DNA from: Antedon mediterranea
Taxonomy: Eukaryota > Echinodermata > Crinoidea > Comatulida > Antedonidae
DNA length: 64,000 nt
Assembly: GCF_964355755.1 (NCBI RefSeq)
Contig: NC_092670.1
Coordinates: 6,411,001-6,475,000, forward strand
Reading direction: 5' to 3'
The position numbers and the translations under genes were made by a program. How positions within the stretch are numbered: position 1 is the stretch's first letter; every line of letters starts with the position of its first letter. Shown here piece after piece: positions 57,701-64,000 of this stretch. Below the pieces are notes generated by a model. It did not search any database. It was not told where the DNA came from and worked only from the letters and a program-made list of their open reading frames with translations.

Positions 57701-60700
57701 CCCATAACATTCAATATTTGTATTCCAATTTATATGCATGTGTTATGCGCGATTTGCGCAATTTAAAATTGCGCAAAGACTTCCTTGCGCAATTTGAATT
57801 GAAACATCTGTTTCAAATTGCGCAAGCAACGTATTAAATTGCGCAAGTAATCTGCAAATTGTGCAAGGTTTTTCGACAGATTGTGAAATCATGCACACAC
57901 ATATTTTCATAGTAATTTCTAAGAATGATTCAAAATTAAAGATAATATCGCATTTCCTTATTTTAGTAGTGAAAATATTGTTATTGTTAGCATACCGTCG
58001 AAGACCCGACAAAGGTACCACAAAGGTGGTGTTCCCGGCGGGCGGCTAATACTACTCTAGCCTACTGATGGCTATGTTTTGATAGCAAGTCTAAACGTTG
58101 GTGGCGGTAGACTATGTTGTGTATTACTACATTAATTTTTGTTATTTTTACATTTATTTTGATTTATTTTAAGTTGCAATGAGTGATAATATTATTTAAT
58201 TGTGTATGCCATTGATGTTGTGTATTATACACATGTTATCTTCGCATTTATTATGTTTCATTTTGAGTTATTAGTTTCTAATAAATTATCATTGTTAACC
58301 GATCGTCGACGTTAGCACATGGTTAGCATGCACGCGCATTCTGAAGAATTCTGCTGCGCAATTTGACAATTTTACAAACTGTGCAGCGCAATTTGAAATT
58401 GCGCATGGATTTTCTTGCGCAATTTCAAATTGCGCAAGAATCCTTTTCGCAATTTCAAATTGCGCAAGAAATTTTGTGCGCAATTTCAAATTGCGCAAGG
58501 AATTTTTTGCAAAAATTGCATAGTCGACTGTGCCTATATAAAACTTTAAATTACATGCACAGTTGACTGTCCACCACTGAGAGCGACCACGCTTAAGTGG
58601 CTATAGACACTCACCTGCTGTAAATACAGATTGGTTACTGGTCCTAGCATCTCCAAGTTGTCTATATGCTCAATGTTTTCTCTATCCAATCGTACATGGC
58701 TAATTTTTGTTAGCGATTCAATACTGTGTGAACAAATAAATTACAGATTATTAGTAGAAATATTACAAAAAAAAGGGTAGTAACAAAGTGCGAGGCAGCG
58801 AGGCAGGGAAGGCATGCGAGGCAAGTCAGAAATTTATGCGAGGCATCGTTTTACCATCATCAAAAAATGCGAGGCATCATTTTATCCTTTCTCAAAATTG
58901 CAAGGCAGGAAATCACCGAAATTGAAGTAGCCTAGGCCTAGGCCCGCTAGGCTAGTTTCCTTTTGCACCTGCCTTGTATTTTAACCAACTTTATCCTGAA
59001 TACCACAGCTTAGAATTAGTAGGCCTACTTTAATGAAGAAAAATCACATAAAAGTAACAATAAATCCATTAAATTGGTGATTTTACAGACGATGTTTTTC
59101 TTGCATTTCGCACACTCAATGTTCAATATTTTGGTTTCTATGGAACGCCAAAAGAGCAAAATTAATTAGAGGGCTAAAAACTCTGTGGAATCCATTTATA
59201 TTTAACGCATTATTTGGTGAAAATCAAGTACAATTTCAATAGATTTTGTCACTGTCAGTAAGGAAAAATGTTACTGTTGATAATGTACACGGTTTCGTTA
59301 ACATTTTAAAGAATAAAATAGAAAAATTCATCATAATATCCTTAGTAGGATGTCCTAGGTCTAGACTAGGTAGTGATGTTGATTTAGGATCGATTATTAT
59401 TCTTTGAAAACAGAACAGTATCAGCAGTAACATATTACAGCATTTTTATTGACAAATTAACAAATATATTGAAATAAAATGTGTTTTTCACCAATAAATG
59501 CATGAGAAATTGACGCATTCCACTGAGTTTTAGTCCTCTATTATCGTTGCTCTTTTGGCGCTCCATAGAAACAAAAATATTGAACATTGAATAAGTGAAA
59601 TTCGCGAACAGTGTGCGAGAAACACGCCTGTAAAATCATTAATTTAAGGATTTATTTGTTACTTTTTATGTGATTCTTTCATTAAAGTACTCATGAGGTA
59701 TACTTCTAAGGTGTGGTATTCACACGATAAAGTTAGCGAAGGAAACTAGCGCCAGGTTTATTAATACGTACATGGACAACAATAAATAAAAATCGTTCGT
59801 AATATACCTAGCTTACTAAAACAGGAATAGTGTATCATTATTAAATATTACACCAATTATTATTATATCAAAATTGATTAAATTATTTTCTACATAGGCC
59901 TCTTATCTAGGTTAGGGCTAAGCATATTAGCTAAAGTTTAATGTTAGGCCTAGTATTACAATTGTCGGACGTAAGTCTTTTTTCACACGCGCTCCAGAAT
60001 TCTGTCGCAATTTTTTTCTTTGCGGCATGTTATTGGATCGCCATATCAGTTACCTTTTATTCACCGCCAGTTATTGAACTTGTCCTGGCAATCGCTGTTC
60101 ACCTTATTTGCGAGAGAGGTACACGTGTTGTTCCTAGAGAATGGAATGTCAAAAATGTCTTTGGCACGCCGCTCAGAGAGAAGTCTGTGCGTTGCTGCTG
60201 AAACCACGTGCTATAGGAGGGGAATGCACCACAATCCTCTGAGCTGAGGGCTGAATCATTCCGCTACCTGCTAAATAGTAAAGAGGGATTTTCCATCTCT
60301 CGGGTCTACCGGATCTAGGCGCAGGGGTGTGACAAAATATTATTTTCACTCTGCTATGTTCGAGAGACATGTGAGTGAACACGCTCGAAATGCCAACAAA
60401 CATTGCAATCATTTGATGAGTGTGTCGCTATAACAATTATTGTTTATCGAAAGTTAGAGACTGTCGTTCAGATTTTTGAACCGTAGTTTGGGCACTTTTG
60501 ACACGATATGACTTGAATGAAAAAACAATCGTTACATAAAAATAAACAACATGATGAGTGTATACACGAATCTATTTAGATACGCTTGTATCGATTGATT
60601 ATTAGGCCTATAATATAGCATAATAGCACGTTAAGATATGCCTCGCACCTTTTTGAAATTGTAAACTATATGCCTCGCACTTTTGGAAATGATAAAATGA

Positions 60701-63417
60701 TGCCTCGCACAAATATTTGGCATGCCTCGCTGCCTCGCACTTTGTCAACACTCCAAAAAAAAACGAAGTTACAGGCCTACACTGCAAGCAAATTAAATTT
60801 TCGCATGAGAATTTTAATGGCCATATGCTCGTAAAATGTGTAACAAAAGTTTTTTTGTATCTATAATTAATGTAATTCTTGCAAATGTTCATATTTAATC
60901 AGTTTAAGATGGAATTGTTGTTGTTATAGTTTTTTTTATTTTTGATTTCATGTACTTTTACTATTATATATTTATATTTTAGTCTACTCTGTAGCAATGT
61001 TAGTATACTTATAGGCATACGGGGGTCACGACTTAAAGTTCAGTGAACTTACTGTGACCTCCATTCACCCACATTTAATATGTTGTGTAAATTATATATA
61101 TATATATATAAGTGAGTGGAAAAAATAAATAAACGAAACGAAACCAAACCAGTACTACTACTTCTACTAGGCTCTAGGCCTACTGAGCATTAAGTCATTG
61201 TTGTTGTTTGCAGCTACAATAATATTTAAGACCTCCTTACCTAGGGAGTGTTGACAAAGTGCGAGGCAGCGAGGCACGCGAGGCATGCCAAATATTTGTG
61301 CGAGGTATCATTTTATCATTTCCAAAAGTGCGAGGCGTGCGAGGCATATAGTTTACAATTTCAAAAAGGTGCGAGGCATATCTTAACATGCTATTATGCT
61401 ATATTATAGGCCTAATAATCAATCGATACAAGCGTATCTAAATAGATTCGTGTATACACTCATCATGTTGTTTATTTTTATGTAACGATTGTTTTTTCAT
61501 TCAAGTCATATCGTGTCAAATTTTACTTTTACAAAAGTGCCCAAACTACGGTTCAAAAATCTGAACGACAGTCTTCAACTTTCGATAAACAATAATTGTT
61601 ATAGCGACACACTCATCAAATTACTGCAATGTTTGTTGGCATTTCGAGCGTGTTCACTCACATGTCTCTCGAACATAGCAGAGTGAAAATAATATTTTGT
61701 CACACCCCTGCGCCTAGATCCGGTAGACCCGAGAGATGGAAAATCCATCTTTACTATTTAGCAGGTAGCGGAATGATTCAGCCCTCAGCTCAGAGGATTG
61801 TGGTGCATTCCCCTCCTATAGCACGTGGTTTCAGCAGCAACGCACAGACTTCTCTCTGAGCGGCGTGCCAAAGACATTTTTGACATTCCATTCTCTAGGA
61901 ACAACACGTGTACCTCTCTCGCAAATAAGGTGAACAGCGATTGCCAGGACAAGTTCAATAACTGGCGGTGAATAAAAGGTAACTGATATGCCGATCCAAT
62001 AACATGCCGCAAAGAAAAAAATTGCGACAGAATTCTGGAGCGCGTGTGAAAAAAGACTTACGTCCGACAATTGTAATACTAGGCCTAAAATTAAACTTTA
62101 GCTAATATGCTTAGCCCTAACCTAGATAAGAGGCCTATGTAGAAAATAATTTAATCAATTTTGATATAATAATAATTGGTGTAATATTTAATAATGATAC
62201 ACTATTCCTGTTTTAGTAAGCTAGGTATATTATTATTACGAACGATTTTTATTTATTGTTGTCCATGTACGTACTAATAAACCTGGCGCTAGTTTCCTTC
62301 GCTTGTATTTTTACTCCAAATTTGATAACTAACTTTATCGTGTGAATACCACACCTTAGAAGTATACCTCATGAGTACTTTAATGAAAGAATCACATAAA
62401 AAGTAACAAATAAATCCTTAAATTAATGATTTTACAGGCGTGTTTCTCGCACACTGTTCGCGAATTTCACTTATTCAATGTTCAATATTTTTGTTTCTAT
62501 GGAGCGCCAAAAGAGCAACGATAAAACTCAGTGGAATGCGTCAATTTCTCATGCATTTATTGGTGAAAAACACGTTTCATTTCAATATATTTGTTAATTT
62601 GTCAATAAAAATGTTGTAATATGTTACTGCTGATACTGTTCTGTTTTCAAAGAATAATAATCGATCCTAAATCAACATCACTACCTAGTCTAGACCTAGG
62701 ACATCCTACTAAGGATATTATGATGAATTTTTCTATTTTATTCTTTAAAAGGTTAACGAAACCGTGTACATTATCAACAGTAACATTTTTCCTTACTGAC
62801 AGTGACAAAATCTATTGAAATTGTACTTGATTTTCACCAAATAATGCGTTAAATATAAATGGATTCTACAGAGTTTTTAGCCCTCTAATTAATTTTGCTC
62901 TTTTGGCGTTCCATAGAAACCAAAATATTGAACATTGAGTGTGCGAAATGCGAGAAAAACAACGTCTGTAAAATCACCAATTTAATGGATTTATTGTTAC
63001 TTTTATGTGATTTTTCTTCATTAAAGTAGGCCTAGTAATTCTAAGCTGTGGTATTCAGGATAAAGTTGGTTAAAATACAAGGCAGGTGCAAAAGGAAACT
63101 AGCCTAGCGGGCCTAGGCCTAGGCTACTTCAATTTCGGTGATTTCCTGCCTTGCAATTTTGAGAAATGATAAAATGATGCCTCGCATTTTTTGATGATGG
63201 TAAAACGATGCCTCGCATAAATTTCTGACTTGCCTCGCATGCCTTCCCTGCCTCGCACTTTGTTACTACCCTTACCTAGGCTAGGTCTAGCCTAGCTATG
63301 CCACAGTACTTACAGTTTTTCGTGTGGTCCATTGGCTACACTTGCAGCAAGGTTCCGTTTTGCTATCAGAGAAAATGAAATTCTGGCTGGGTTTGAAACA
63401 TTTTCTTTGAGATCCAT
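54623..63417 (-). CDS. LRRC46: LRRC46-like leucine-rich-repeat protein, 6 exons, 259 aa
   Basis: An orthologue of LRRC46, an SDS22-type LRR protein linked in mammals to the sperm flagellum. Exons 63417-63314, 58723-58615, 56757-56601, 56211-56142, 55182-55010 and 54789-54623 splice in frame to 259 residues (human about 321). Hallmarks in order: IAKRNL near the N-terminus (human ITKRNL); HVRLDRENI (human TVRLDREGI); LYLQQNMIQRIENL; LRFLVLSGNKIEKVKNL; LMFLDLSENLIVHLDI (human LQFLDLSENLIETL); DELPPSLIILNMSGNECT (human DEFPQSLLILNLSGNSCT); then an acidic stretch (SSSDEEETEDEE), also present in human. The C-terminal tail is shorter and diverged. The four repeats and LRR cap are intact, so the gene looks functional despite heavy transposon load in introns 1 and 2. 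Start chosen at the ATG at 63417. Confidence 0.92.
54764..54910. repeat. Tandem duplication over a splice acceptor
   Basis: AATTTCTGTTGAGGTTTGAA begins at 54764 and again at 54832, and its first bases recur at 54904 (periods 68 and 72). On the minus strand each copy carries TATTTCAG followed by the first ~25 bases of the last LRRC46 exon. Confidence 0.9.
55010..55182 (-). CDS. LRRC46: LRRC46 exon 5, acidic segment
   Basis: 57 codons with an acidic run (SSSDEEETEDEE). The acceptor is TTAATAG; the donor is AAACG before GTAAGA. Confidence 0.85.
55269..55435. mobile_element. ~160-bp inverted-repeat element, copy 4
   Basis: The ends are AAGCTCTGCCTGCACTAT and AATGTAGACAGAGCTT. GATGTGCCCAAATATGGTAG is inside, with GCCCAAATATGGTAGTGATA tandemly duplicated. 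Confidence 0.8.
55536..55725 (+). repeat. Dispersed repeat, copy 2
   Basis: Same ordered blocks as 52556-52880, same orientation, more compact. Confidence 0.5.
56142..56211 (-). CDS. LRRC46: LRRC46 exon 4
   Basis: Residues DELPPSLIILNMSGNECT and following. The acceptor is TTTCTAG; the donor is TACAG before GTAGTA. Confidence 0.9.
56212..56600 (-). other. LRRC46 intron 3
   Basis: 389 bases. No feature recognised. Confidence 0.6.
56601..56757 (-). CDS. LRRC46: LRRC46 exon 3, LRR core
   Basis: 52 codons plus one base, holding two full SDS22-like repeats. The acceptor is GCCTTTTAG; the donor is CATAG before GTAATT. Confidence 0.92.
56790..57250 (-). mobile_element. LINE fragment: reverse transcriptase tail and 3' end
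   Basis: The minus frame 57247-56996 encodes YMIRETKIICTLPKNTNIG, then GIFYEGPRIWNNISNVIRSS, the post-polymerase GP.IWN..P..IR motif of Jockey/CR1/L2-like LINEs. The element ends TTTGTGGAAATAAA with an (ATT)n tail at 56790-56810. 5'-truncated and sitting in LRRC46 intron 2, in the gene's own orientation. Confidence 0.75.
57413..57520 (+). pseudogene. 5S rRNA-derived sequence (pseudogene or SINE head)
   Basis: It aligns by eye with animal 5S rRNA: AACGGCCTTACCATGTTTAA at the start (5S has ACGGCCATACCACCCTGAA), then AAGTTACAGTAAGCAACGTCGGGC, then GGTTGGATGGGAGACCATCT and GGGAATATCGGGAGCTG. About 20 bases around the 5S CGATCTCGTCTGATCTCGG region are missing. The C-box of the internal promoter is nearly intact. 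It may be a 5S pseudogene or the head of a SINE3-type retroposon. A functional 5S is excluded by the deletion. Confidence 0.8.
57745..57875. repeat. TTGCGCAA palindrome cluster 1
   Basis: Five exact TTGCGCAA octamers in ~100 bp, mostly as paired arms such as TTGCGCAATTTAAAATTGCG. They form hairpins and also equal the C/EBP consensus half-site dimer. Confidence 0.85.
58350..58525. repeat. TTGCGCAA palindrome cluster 2
   Basis: Four near-copies of a ~40-bp unit, each with GCGCAATTTCAAATTGCGCA as a palindrome. Four exact TTGCGCAA octamers plus several with one change. It lies ~90 bases upstream, in plus-strand order, of LRRC46 exon 2. Confidence 0.88.
58615..58723 (-). CDS. LRRC46: LRRC46 exon 2
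   Basis: Completes a Leu codon, then 36 codons including HVRLDRENIEHIDNLE and LYLQQ. The acceptor is TTCACACAG; the donor is CAGCAG before GTGAGT. Confidence 0.9.
58775..60754 (+). mobile_element. ~2-kb DNA transposon with GCGAGGCA ends, copy 1
   Basis: The terminal inverted repeats share ACAAAGTGCGAGGCAGCG; the left end starts GGGTAGTA and the right end, inverted, GGAGTGTTG. Several GCGAGGCA repeats lie subterminally at both ends. It is flanked by AAAAAAAA on both sides (58767-58774 and 60755-60762), an 8-bp target duplication, though in a homopolymer. The element has an internal fold-back (about 58951-59260 against 59440-59750). No transposase motif in any frame, so probably non-autonomous. 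8-bp duplications occur in hAT, P and Merlin groups; the GG start argues against hAT. Confidence 0.85.
60755..61244. other. Spacer between the two inverted transposons
   Basis: About 490 bases of LRRC46 intron 1. It includes a LINE-like 3' end (ACTTAAAGTTCAGTGAAC to GAGTGGAAAAAATAAATAAA) with a TA microsatellite near 61097-61111. Confidence 0.6.
61245..63271 (-). mobile_element. ~2-kb DNA transposon with GCGAGGCA ends, copy 2, inverted
   Basis: A reverse-orientation copy of the element at 58775, nearly identical along its length. It is flanked by a perfect 8-bp duplication TTACCTAG (61237-61244 and 63272-63279), which fixes its borders and shows independent insertion. Differences: one fewer GCGAGGCA unit at the outer end, ~30 extra bases near 62305-62335 and ~15 extra near 61520. 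The frames it shares with copy 1 (for example MRHVIGS at 62012 minus) match no family I know. Confidence 0.9.
63314..63417 (-). CDS. LRRC46: LRRC46 exon 1
   Basis: 34 codons plus two bases (MDLKENVSNPARISF to HEK). The donor is AAACT before GTAAGT. Confidence 0.8.
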
Positions 63418-64000
63418 GTGGTGGGCCAAAATGTAAAAAAAAAAAAAATTTTAATGACAATGTTAGTAGGGAGGTAGAGGCTCAAGTTGTGTAGGCCTAG
63501 CCTACTTAGCTAGGGCTTCTTCATAGCTAGGGCCTAGCCTAGGGGTGTGAGATGAAATCGGTCGCGTTTGAAAATCGGTCGCGATAAAATCAACTTCTGG
63601 TATTTTGTATGGCGCGCCGCTACAGCTATACTTTTGGTGATATCGGTCGCGCTATTTTGTATGGATCGAGCGGGATGCATCCTAGAGCGGGATATACATT
63701 TTTCGTTTATATAGATTTAATTGATATTTGTTAGGAACTATATTATTTATATGGATATTTTTTACTTGGTTAATAAATATTTATTATCAATCATTAAATT
63801 AATTTTTTTTTGTATTTCACAGGTCTCGGAGACTAGACTGTGTCTTTTCAAAATTGCCATTTCTAAACACGTTTAAATATTATATTAGGCATATTGTTAT
63901 ATTAGGCATATAATAATTTACCTCTATTTATATGTACTGTAATTAATATATTCTATAGAGAATAAACGTCTGTCGTGTCTTTTATTATGCAAACAATTAC
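63418..64000. other. 5' flank of LRRC46
   Basis: Should hold the LRRC46 promoter (minus strand). It contains three copies of ATCGGTCGCG (63557, 63574, 63642), a GGCGCGCC site near 63611 and a repeated TATTTTGTATGG. No TATA box or second gene recognised. Confidence 0.4.

Follow-up and report, generated by a model that had tools for sequence, protein, structure and literature searches.

The inverted repeat found in the window (the 64,000 nucleotides of Antedon mediterranea DNA analysed here, C1:6411001-6475000) consists of two 2-kb elements, W1 and W2, which are very probably independent insertions of a young non-autonomous cut-and-paste transposon that is foldback-like, probably of Mutator type, and mobilised in trans. 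With a search of the whole genome (354 Mb, 18 contigs), an unnamed inverted repeat can be assigned to a defined transposon family that was active recently and has a candidate transposase.

The two elements of the window and their host gene

W1 extends from 58775 to 60753 on the plus strand (1,979 bp; its borders were fixed from the 9-bp duplication and by aligning it with other copies of the genome), and W2 from 61246 to 63271 on the minus strand (2,026 bp; 5' end at 63271), and both are non-coding. The letters next to them, read directly, include a 9-bp target-site duplication for each element: CAAAAAAAA at 58766-58774 and 60754-60762 for W1, and TTACCTAGG at 61237-61245 and 63272-63280 for W2. 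This confirms the first-pass annotation in two respects, the presence of an inverted pair of about 2-kb elements and its origin in two separate insertions, each with its own duplication. However, that annotation had given the duplications as 8 bp, had taken ACAAAGTG as terminal and had called the pair head-to-head, and these three points had to be corrected. The elements start 8 bases further out, with the outer motifs GGGTAGTA and GAGTGTTG, so that the 5' end is GGGTAGTA-ACAAAGTG and the 3' end is GAGTGTTG-ACAAAGTG (in W1, the termini are GGGTAGTAACAAAG and CTTTGTCAACACTC, respectively). In the orientation of the family the pair is tail-to-tail, with the two 3' (GAGTGTTG) ends turned towards one another and 492 bp separating the elements; the intron DNA that separates the two insertions lies at 60763-61236.

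Within these ends, W1 carries subterminal repeats of the GCGAGGCA type at 58790-58910, some of them about 31 bp apart, and again, in inverted orientation, at 60638-60745 (plus strand, limits approximate in both cases), and the number of GCGAGGCA units at the ends differs from copy to copy. The sequence ACAAAGTGCGAGGCA is present at both ends, inverted, inside the asymmetric outer 8 bases, and constitutes a terminal inverted repeat of the kind expected of a MULE. The interior contains an imperfect palindrome (59026-59689 in W1, 62376-63028 in W2) which, since its arm pieces are just 70-87% complementary, is far older than the element copies themselves. This palindrome was not found in the longer relatives described below, of which the one on C1 was read whole and the one on C5 except for about 2 kb. 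No long reading frame was found in the 2-kb element, and the two frames of 90 and 84 codons gave no Pfam match.

An end-to-end alignment of W1 with reversed W2 showed 99.0% identity, with 19 substitutions in 1,959 aligned bases plus several indels, and the arms of the inverted repeat consist of pieces of 735, 701, 196 and 184 plus shorter ones, 97-100% complementary. Near identity had been taken to imply recent activity, and this is borne out by the family as a whole (see below), but the likeness of the arms does not mean that one descends from the other. The substitution divergence between W1 and W2 (1.1%) is about the family median, and 456 of 820 pairs of copies are closer. Moreover, W1 has four diagnostic sites in common with L001, L002, L003 and L011 that are absent from W2, and no interior site was private to W1 and W2 among the 41 copies compared. 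On the basis of this divergence, of the different diagnostic sites and of the lack of a private shared site, W1 and W2 are best read as two separate insertions of one young family, neither copied from the other; direct descent by local duplication was ruled out by the divergence and the diagnostic sites. An assembly artefact is also unlikely to have produced the inverted repeat, because substitutions and indels distinguish the arms, each arm has a duplication of its own and the two fit different subfamilies.

Both elements lie in one intron of a minus-strand gene of leucine-rich repeat (LRR) type. Exon 1, predicted from the sequence, occupies 63314-63417, starting from the ATG at 63417; intron 1 (58724-63313, 4,590 bp) has a GTAAGT donor and a CAG acceptor that join in frame; and exon 2, which carries the leucine-rich repeat, occupies 58615-58723, its end before GTGAGT having been counted by hand from the letters. 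A recent transposon accounts for 4,023 of the 4,590 bp of this first intron, which is reduced to 567 bp once both elements and their extra duplications are subtracted. The three-exon product (exon 2/3 join assumed) matched 72 distinct PDB sequences; the names of the best 60 of these 72 are those of LRR-type chains, PP1 regulatory subunit 7 and internalin A among them, and LRRC46 is absent from the 60. The exon-2 frame by itself gave no Pfam match. The earlier placement of the insertions in intron 1 of LRRC46 thus holds as to a single intron of a minus-strand LRR gene; the name LRRC46 reflects a presumed similarity, and the host is putatively LRRC46-like. Given arm pieces of 735 and 701 nt that match at 99%, the unspliced transcript would be able to pair over about 2 kb and, as proposed in the first-pass annotation, might be a source of small RNAs or of editing. 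It could also be thought that the palindrome has been kept since this hairpin regulates the host gene. We regard such a role as extremely improbable, given that the elements are young, that pairs of this kind need no function and that an Rfam search of 58500-63600 gave a single match, at chance level.

The family across the genome

The 17-mer TGCGAGGCAGCGAGGCA was located at 206 + 194 = 400 places allowing up to one mismatch, with none for the reversed control, and exact 16-mers of the ends were found 213 (5') and 230 (3') times genome-wide, again with none for the reversed controls. On C1-C3, 83 of the 97 listed 5' ends had a correctly oriented 3' end within 16 kb, and for 52 of the 97 the element length was 1.9-2.15 kb. 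The family size is roughly 200 copies. In the 45 loci fetched first (L001-L045), both ends were found in 43 copies, and a perfect duplication of 9 bp was present in 35 of them and missing in 8; perfect duplications of 8 bp and 10 bp occurred in one and none of the 43, respectively. Other genome copies with target duplications, proposed in the first-pass annotation as a check, are therefore many, but their duplications are of 9 bp, and the outcome of no other copies did not occur.

Divergence was calculated for 41 copies, namely W1, W2 and 39 from the rest of the genome, after four of at least 3.2 kb had been dropped; over the 820 pairs, substitutions in the interior gave a median pairwise divergence of 1.06%. 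The listed identity of most full-length copies (95-96%) is below these substitution-based figures, we assume because gaps were counted. No description of this family was found in the literature searched, and within that scope it is a new family, whose cut-and-paste type and foldback-like ends are of a kind already known.

Longer relatives, candidate transposase and affinities of the family

A longer relative encoding a transposase had been suggested as something to look for, and two (15.0 and 12.6 kb) were found that carry a transposase-like gene. The first (C1:8206283-8221309, 15,027 bp) is flanked by its own 9-bp duplication, AAATTAGTT, and the second (C5:14702517-14715087, 12,571 bp) by ACTCTGCTT. 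At the 5' end, the C1 relative is 90% identical to the first 131 bp of W2, and the C5 relative 91% identical over its first 88 bp, a short piece having been read. The last 1 kb or so is common to the family and the longer relatives, at 97% for C1 and at 95% over the 961 columns read for C5. Both have an additional 3' end ahead of the last kilobase, as might be expected if an element with a transposase had at some time entered a family copy at about position 980 and the resulting chimera had subsequently transposed.

A frame of 808 codons is open in the C5 relative and broken in the C1 copy. The N-terminal part of the 808-aa protein is Cys/His-rich as judged by eye, and a paralogue of 694 aa, 24-26% identical, was found at C2 (L087). 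D289, D373 and E488 are conserved between both proteins in a D-D-E pattern, and their setting is what we take to be that expected of Mutator-type transposases. Neither protein had a Pfam match, MULE (PF10551) included, and the 808-aa protein did not match PF12762, the model for the IS1595-type transposase of Merlin elements. When compared by hhalign with four Mutator-type proteins from the same genome, residues 30-410 were aligned with both D regions paired (P 0.0039), in a match with a probability of just 8.6% and an alignment that ends before E488, and the control with two Merlin-type proteins of the genome (P 0.29) disclosed no profile similarity. The C..H motif, which is CEFH in the paralogue, is DYFN in the 808-aa protein; the C1 and C5 copies of the frame differ by 7 silent and 10 replacing changes, with no clear constraint; and the transposase profile gave one match to solved structures, at chance level. 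As far as these comparisons go, the 808-aa protein is a probable, unproven transposase.

Two further frames accompany these genes. A 256-aa frame is present beside the transposase-like paralogue (L087:239-1006 and L088:222-989), and that of L087 resembled Herpes_teg_N weakly and below the threshold (E 0.0019). Both longer relatives have a frame of about 120 aa (L079:3955-4320, minus strand) with a GNxxxCFYQCL-type stretch that by eye is OTU protease-like; the L079 frame gave no significant Pfam match.

We propose that a longer relative would supply the transposase in trans, and that this protein would bind the GCGAGGCA repeats near both ends, cut at the outer ends of the element and join it to target DNA opened with a stagger of 9 bp. 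What was observed directly comprises the ends and their 9-bp duplications, the number of copies, their low divergence and the existence of two longer relatives with similar ends and a transposase-like gene; the link to these relatives is limited by a 5' end only about 90% like that of the family. We infer that the 808-codon gene encodes the transposase, that it is of Mutator type and repeat-binding, and that it moves the 2-kb family.

Other loci were considered as sources and set aside. Twenty-four loci with odd end spacing (L039-L045 and L055-L071, some of them fetched for other reasons) proved to be whole, deleted or interrupted copies of the 2-kb family and not autonomous elements, with the exception of L059, where the 3' portion of the long relative on C1 was recognised. 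The genome contains 36 matches to the MULE domain (PF10551) and 11 to the Merlin domain (PF12762), and the genes taken from these (7 MULE and 2 Merlin loci) had no convincing end pair in the 3-6 kb read; three of the MULE repeats extend past the stretch read and their true ends may lie outside it. In L072-L075 and L077 the 5' 16-mer of the family directly follows a (CA)n run; L072-L075 also contain rearranged family pieces, L076 is a rearranged copy, and L077 has a frame that is retroelement-like by eye. A 651-codon frame with a MULE match was seen in five places, including L046 and L047 (C2 and C5), and since the stretches of these two loci are 99.95% identical over 6 kb, they would represent another recent family or a recent duplication.

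Several superfamilies produce target duplications of 8-9 bp, those of hAT, P and Zisupton elements being of 8 bp. As this length is not confined to one superfamily and the candidate transposase has no Pfam match, the family might be placed in another superfamily (hAT, P, Merlin, Zisupton) or in Rehavkus, an assignment that we consider unlikely. Its duplications are of 9 bp, against 8 bp in hAT, P and Zisupton, and a single copy in the 43 would fit hAT by a perfect 8-bp duplication; with regard to Merlin, besides the negative PF12762 and profile results given above, two of the 11 Merlin-type genes of the genome had no ends of this type within the 3 kb read. In Drosophila, foldback (FB) elements have internally repetitive inverted ends that resemble those described here, the repeats of this family being short and few. 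The TU elements of sea urchin, also a marine invertebrate, likewise have tandem repeats (15-bp units) inside inverted ends, and are set apart, by description, by their 8-bp duplications.

Rehavkus is a Mutator-related outgroup with a 9-bp duplication, the same length as in this family (a likeness by description), and with a PHD finger in its transposase (PMC6446971). With E values of up to 1 allowed, PHD models found nothing in the 808-aa protein. The same source gives 8-11 bp for MULE target duplications (PMC6446971), a range that includes the 9 bp of this family, and the MULE domain was not found in the candidate transposase or its paralogue. Tetris, a non-coding foldback of Drosophila virilis, is similar in the repeats inside its inverted ends and in the 8-9 bp duplications of its complete copies, and differs in its 220-bp repeat unit, in terminal inverted repeats of up to 1,735 bp and in that no copy with a transposase was found; the same report states that foldbacks were found in sea urchin (PMC4079207). 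The closest structural likeness is to Tm1 of root-knot nematodes, called a Mutator/Foldback element, in which the inverted repeat is bordered on the outside by asymmetric motifs and contains tandem repeats that vary in number, and in which the duplications are mostly of 9 bp, all of them features of the composite ends described here, and which has many non-coding copies and one copy with a transposase (PMC3169594). One outer motif of Tm1 is CCTACCC, and CTACCC is also seen by eye in the end of this family, which may be chance. On the other hand, the Tm1 repeat unit is of about 14 bp and that of this family is GCGAGGCA-based; the non-coding copies of Tm1 measure about 0.9 kb or less than 0.5 kb, in contrast to 2 kb with an internal palindrome; and the Tm1 transposase, of 496 aa, is Phantom-like, whereas the candidate described here is without a clear relative (PMC3169594 for Tm1). 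The statement that the ends match no family that can be named thus needs qualification, in that Mutator/Foldback elements like Tm1 (PMC3169594) have a matching anatomy, membership in the superfamily being unproven. Structurally, the family is nearest to elements such as Tm1, and it is classed here as foldback-like and probably of Mutator type.

Facing 3' ends and a 50.5-kb segment

To examine neighbouring copies, 197 of the 230 exact 3' ends were listed through three longer exact patterns (97 + 60 + 40). Within this coverage, tail-to-tail pairs no more than 500 bp apart number at least four: the window pair, C2:40569427/40569663, C3:18791147/18791337 and C4:22173490/22173516, the last with 25 bp between its ends. 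Uniform placement, which is surely untrue, would yield 0.055 pairs within 500 bp in any orientation and 0.014 tail-to-tail, in a test that was post hoc and prompted by the window pair. Direct or head-to-head pairs within 500 bp were absent among the 197 listed ends, assuming 2-kb copies, and four head-to-head arrangements were noted with 3' ends 5.2-7.8 kb apart, on C1 (a nested insertion), C2, C5 and C8. Seven same-strand neighbours lie 164-1,016 bp apart. Two of them were read, L021 and the long relative on C5, and in each case both ends belong to a single element. At the other five sites (C4:23886259, C5:6753031, C7:1003352, C8:1712772 and C9:25515004) the distance between same-strand 3' ends is 164-841 bp, which leaves no room for two whole elements, and these are perhaps duplicated ends. 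The C4 pair adjoins a tandem repeat, and the perfect duplication is missing in one copy of the C3 pair and in the sole checkable copy of the C4 pair. A target shared by the spacers was considered and discarded, since a comparison of three spacers gave no shared match longer than 26 columns.

This excess of facing pairs over 0.014 could suggest that the inverted pair of the window arose locally, by a short hop, an inverted duplication or a gene conversion making the arms alike, and it is in keeping with this that the two copies of the C3 pair are mutually nearest among those compared, with one difference in 735. The copies of the C2 pair, in contrast, are not mutually nearest, and the window pair combines separate 9-bp duplications with median divergence, different diagnostic sites and no private site, so that we find a local origin very unlikely and retain independent insertion as the explanation for W1 and W2.

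The copies L061 (3.28 kb; C1:31648218-31651501, minus) and L044 (3.29 kb; C1:31695390-31698680, plus) show 99.6% identity and have the same 5' flank over about 90 bp, with one 9-bp indel. Neither has a duplication of its own, and their 3' flanks start with reverse-complementary 9 bases, so that CTCCTATTG (plus strand) stands just outside both outer 3' ends. Such a flank match was found solely for these two copies among 73 3' ends read and for none among 74 5' ends, a few ends being counted twice in these figures as loci overlap. The segment with its flanking duplications spans C1:31648209-31698689 (50.5 kb) and is known from its borders on either side of a middle part of 43.9 kb. On the simplest reading of these flanks, the 50.5 kb was inserted in one piece into a single target, with an outward 3' end at each border and a 9-bp duplication of the target. 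Going further, it is conceivable, and we put it forward as a tentative and rather doubtful proposal, that two 3' ends synapsed and were inserted together, moving or duplicating C1:31648218-31698680 (flanked by CTCCTATTG), and that the same tendency leaves neighbours with facing 3' ends and so builds palindromes in genes. A precedent for the movement of large segments by foldback-type elements was found in old Drosophila work on the Ising TE, in which a large segment between foldback elements can move (PMC6431247). In both cases a large segment lies between two copies, the unit described here being deduced from one shared 9-bp duplication; if the reading is true, the paired-3'-end unit would be a natural counterpart of the Ising TE (PMC6431247) and would offer a tractable natural system for foldback-type segment movement and palindrome seeding.

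Finally, the near-identical copies L019 and L027 (C7:4463286 and C7:4474725) have a common 5' flank over the 56 bp read, and the 3' flank of L019 differs; the 3' end of L019 may have joined a new target, in an event related to that of the 50.5-kb segment.
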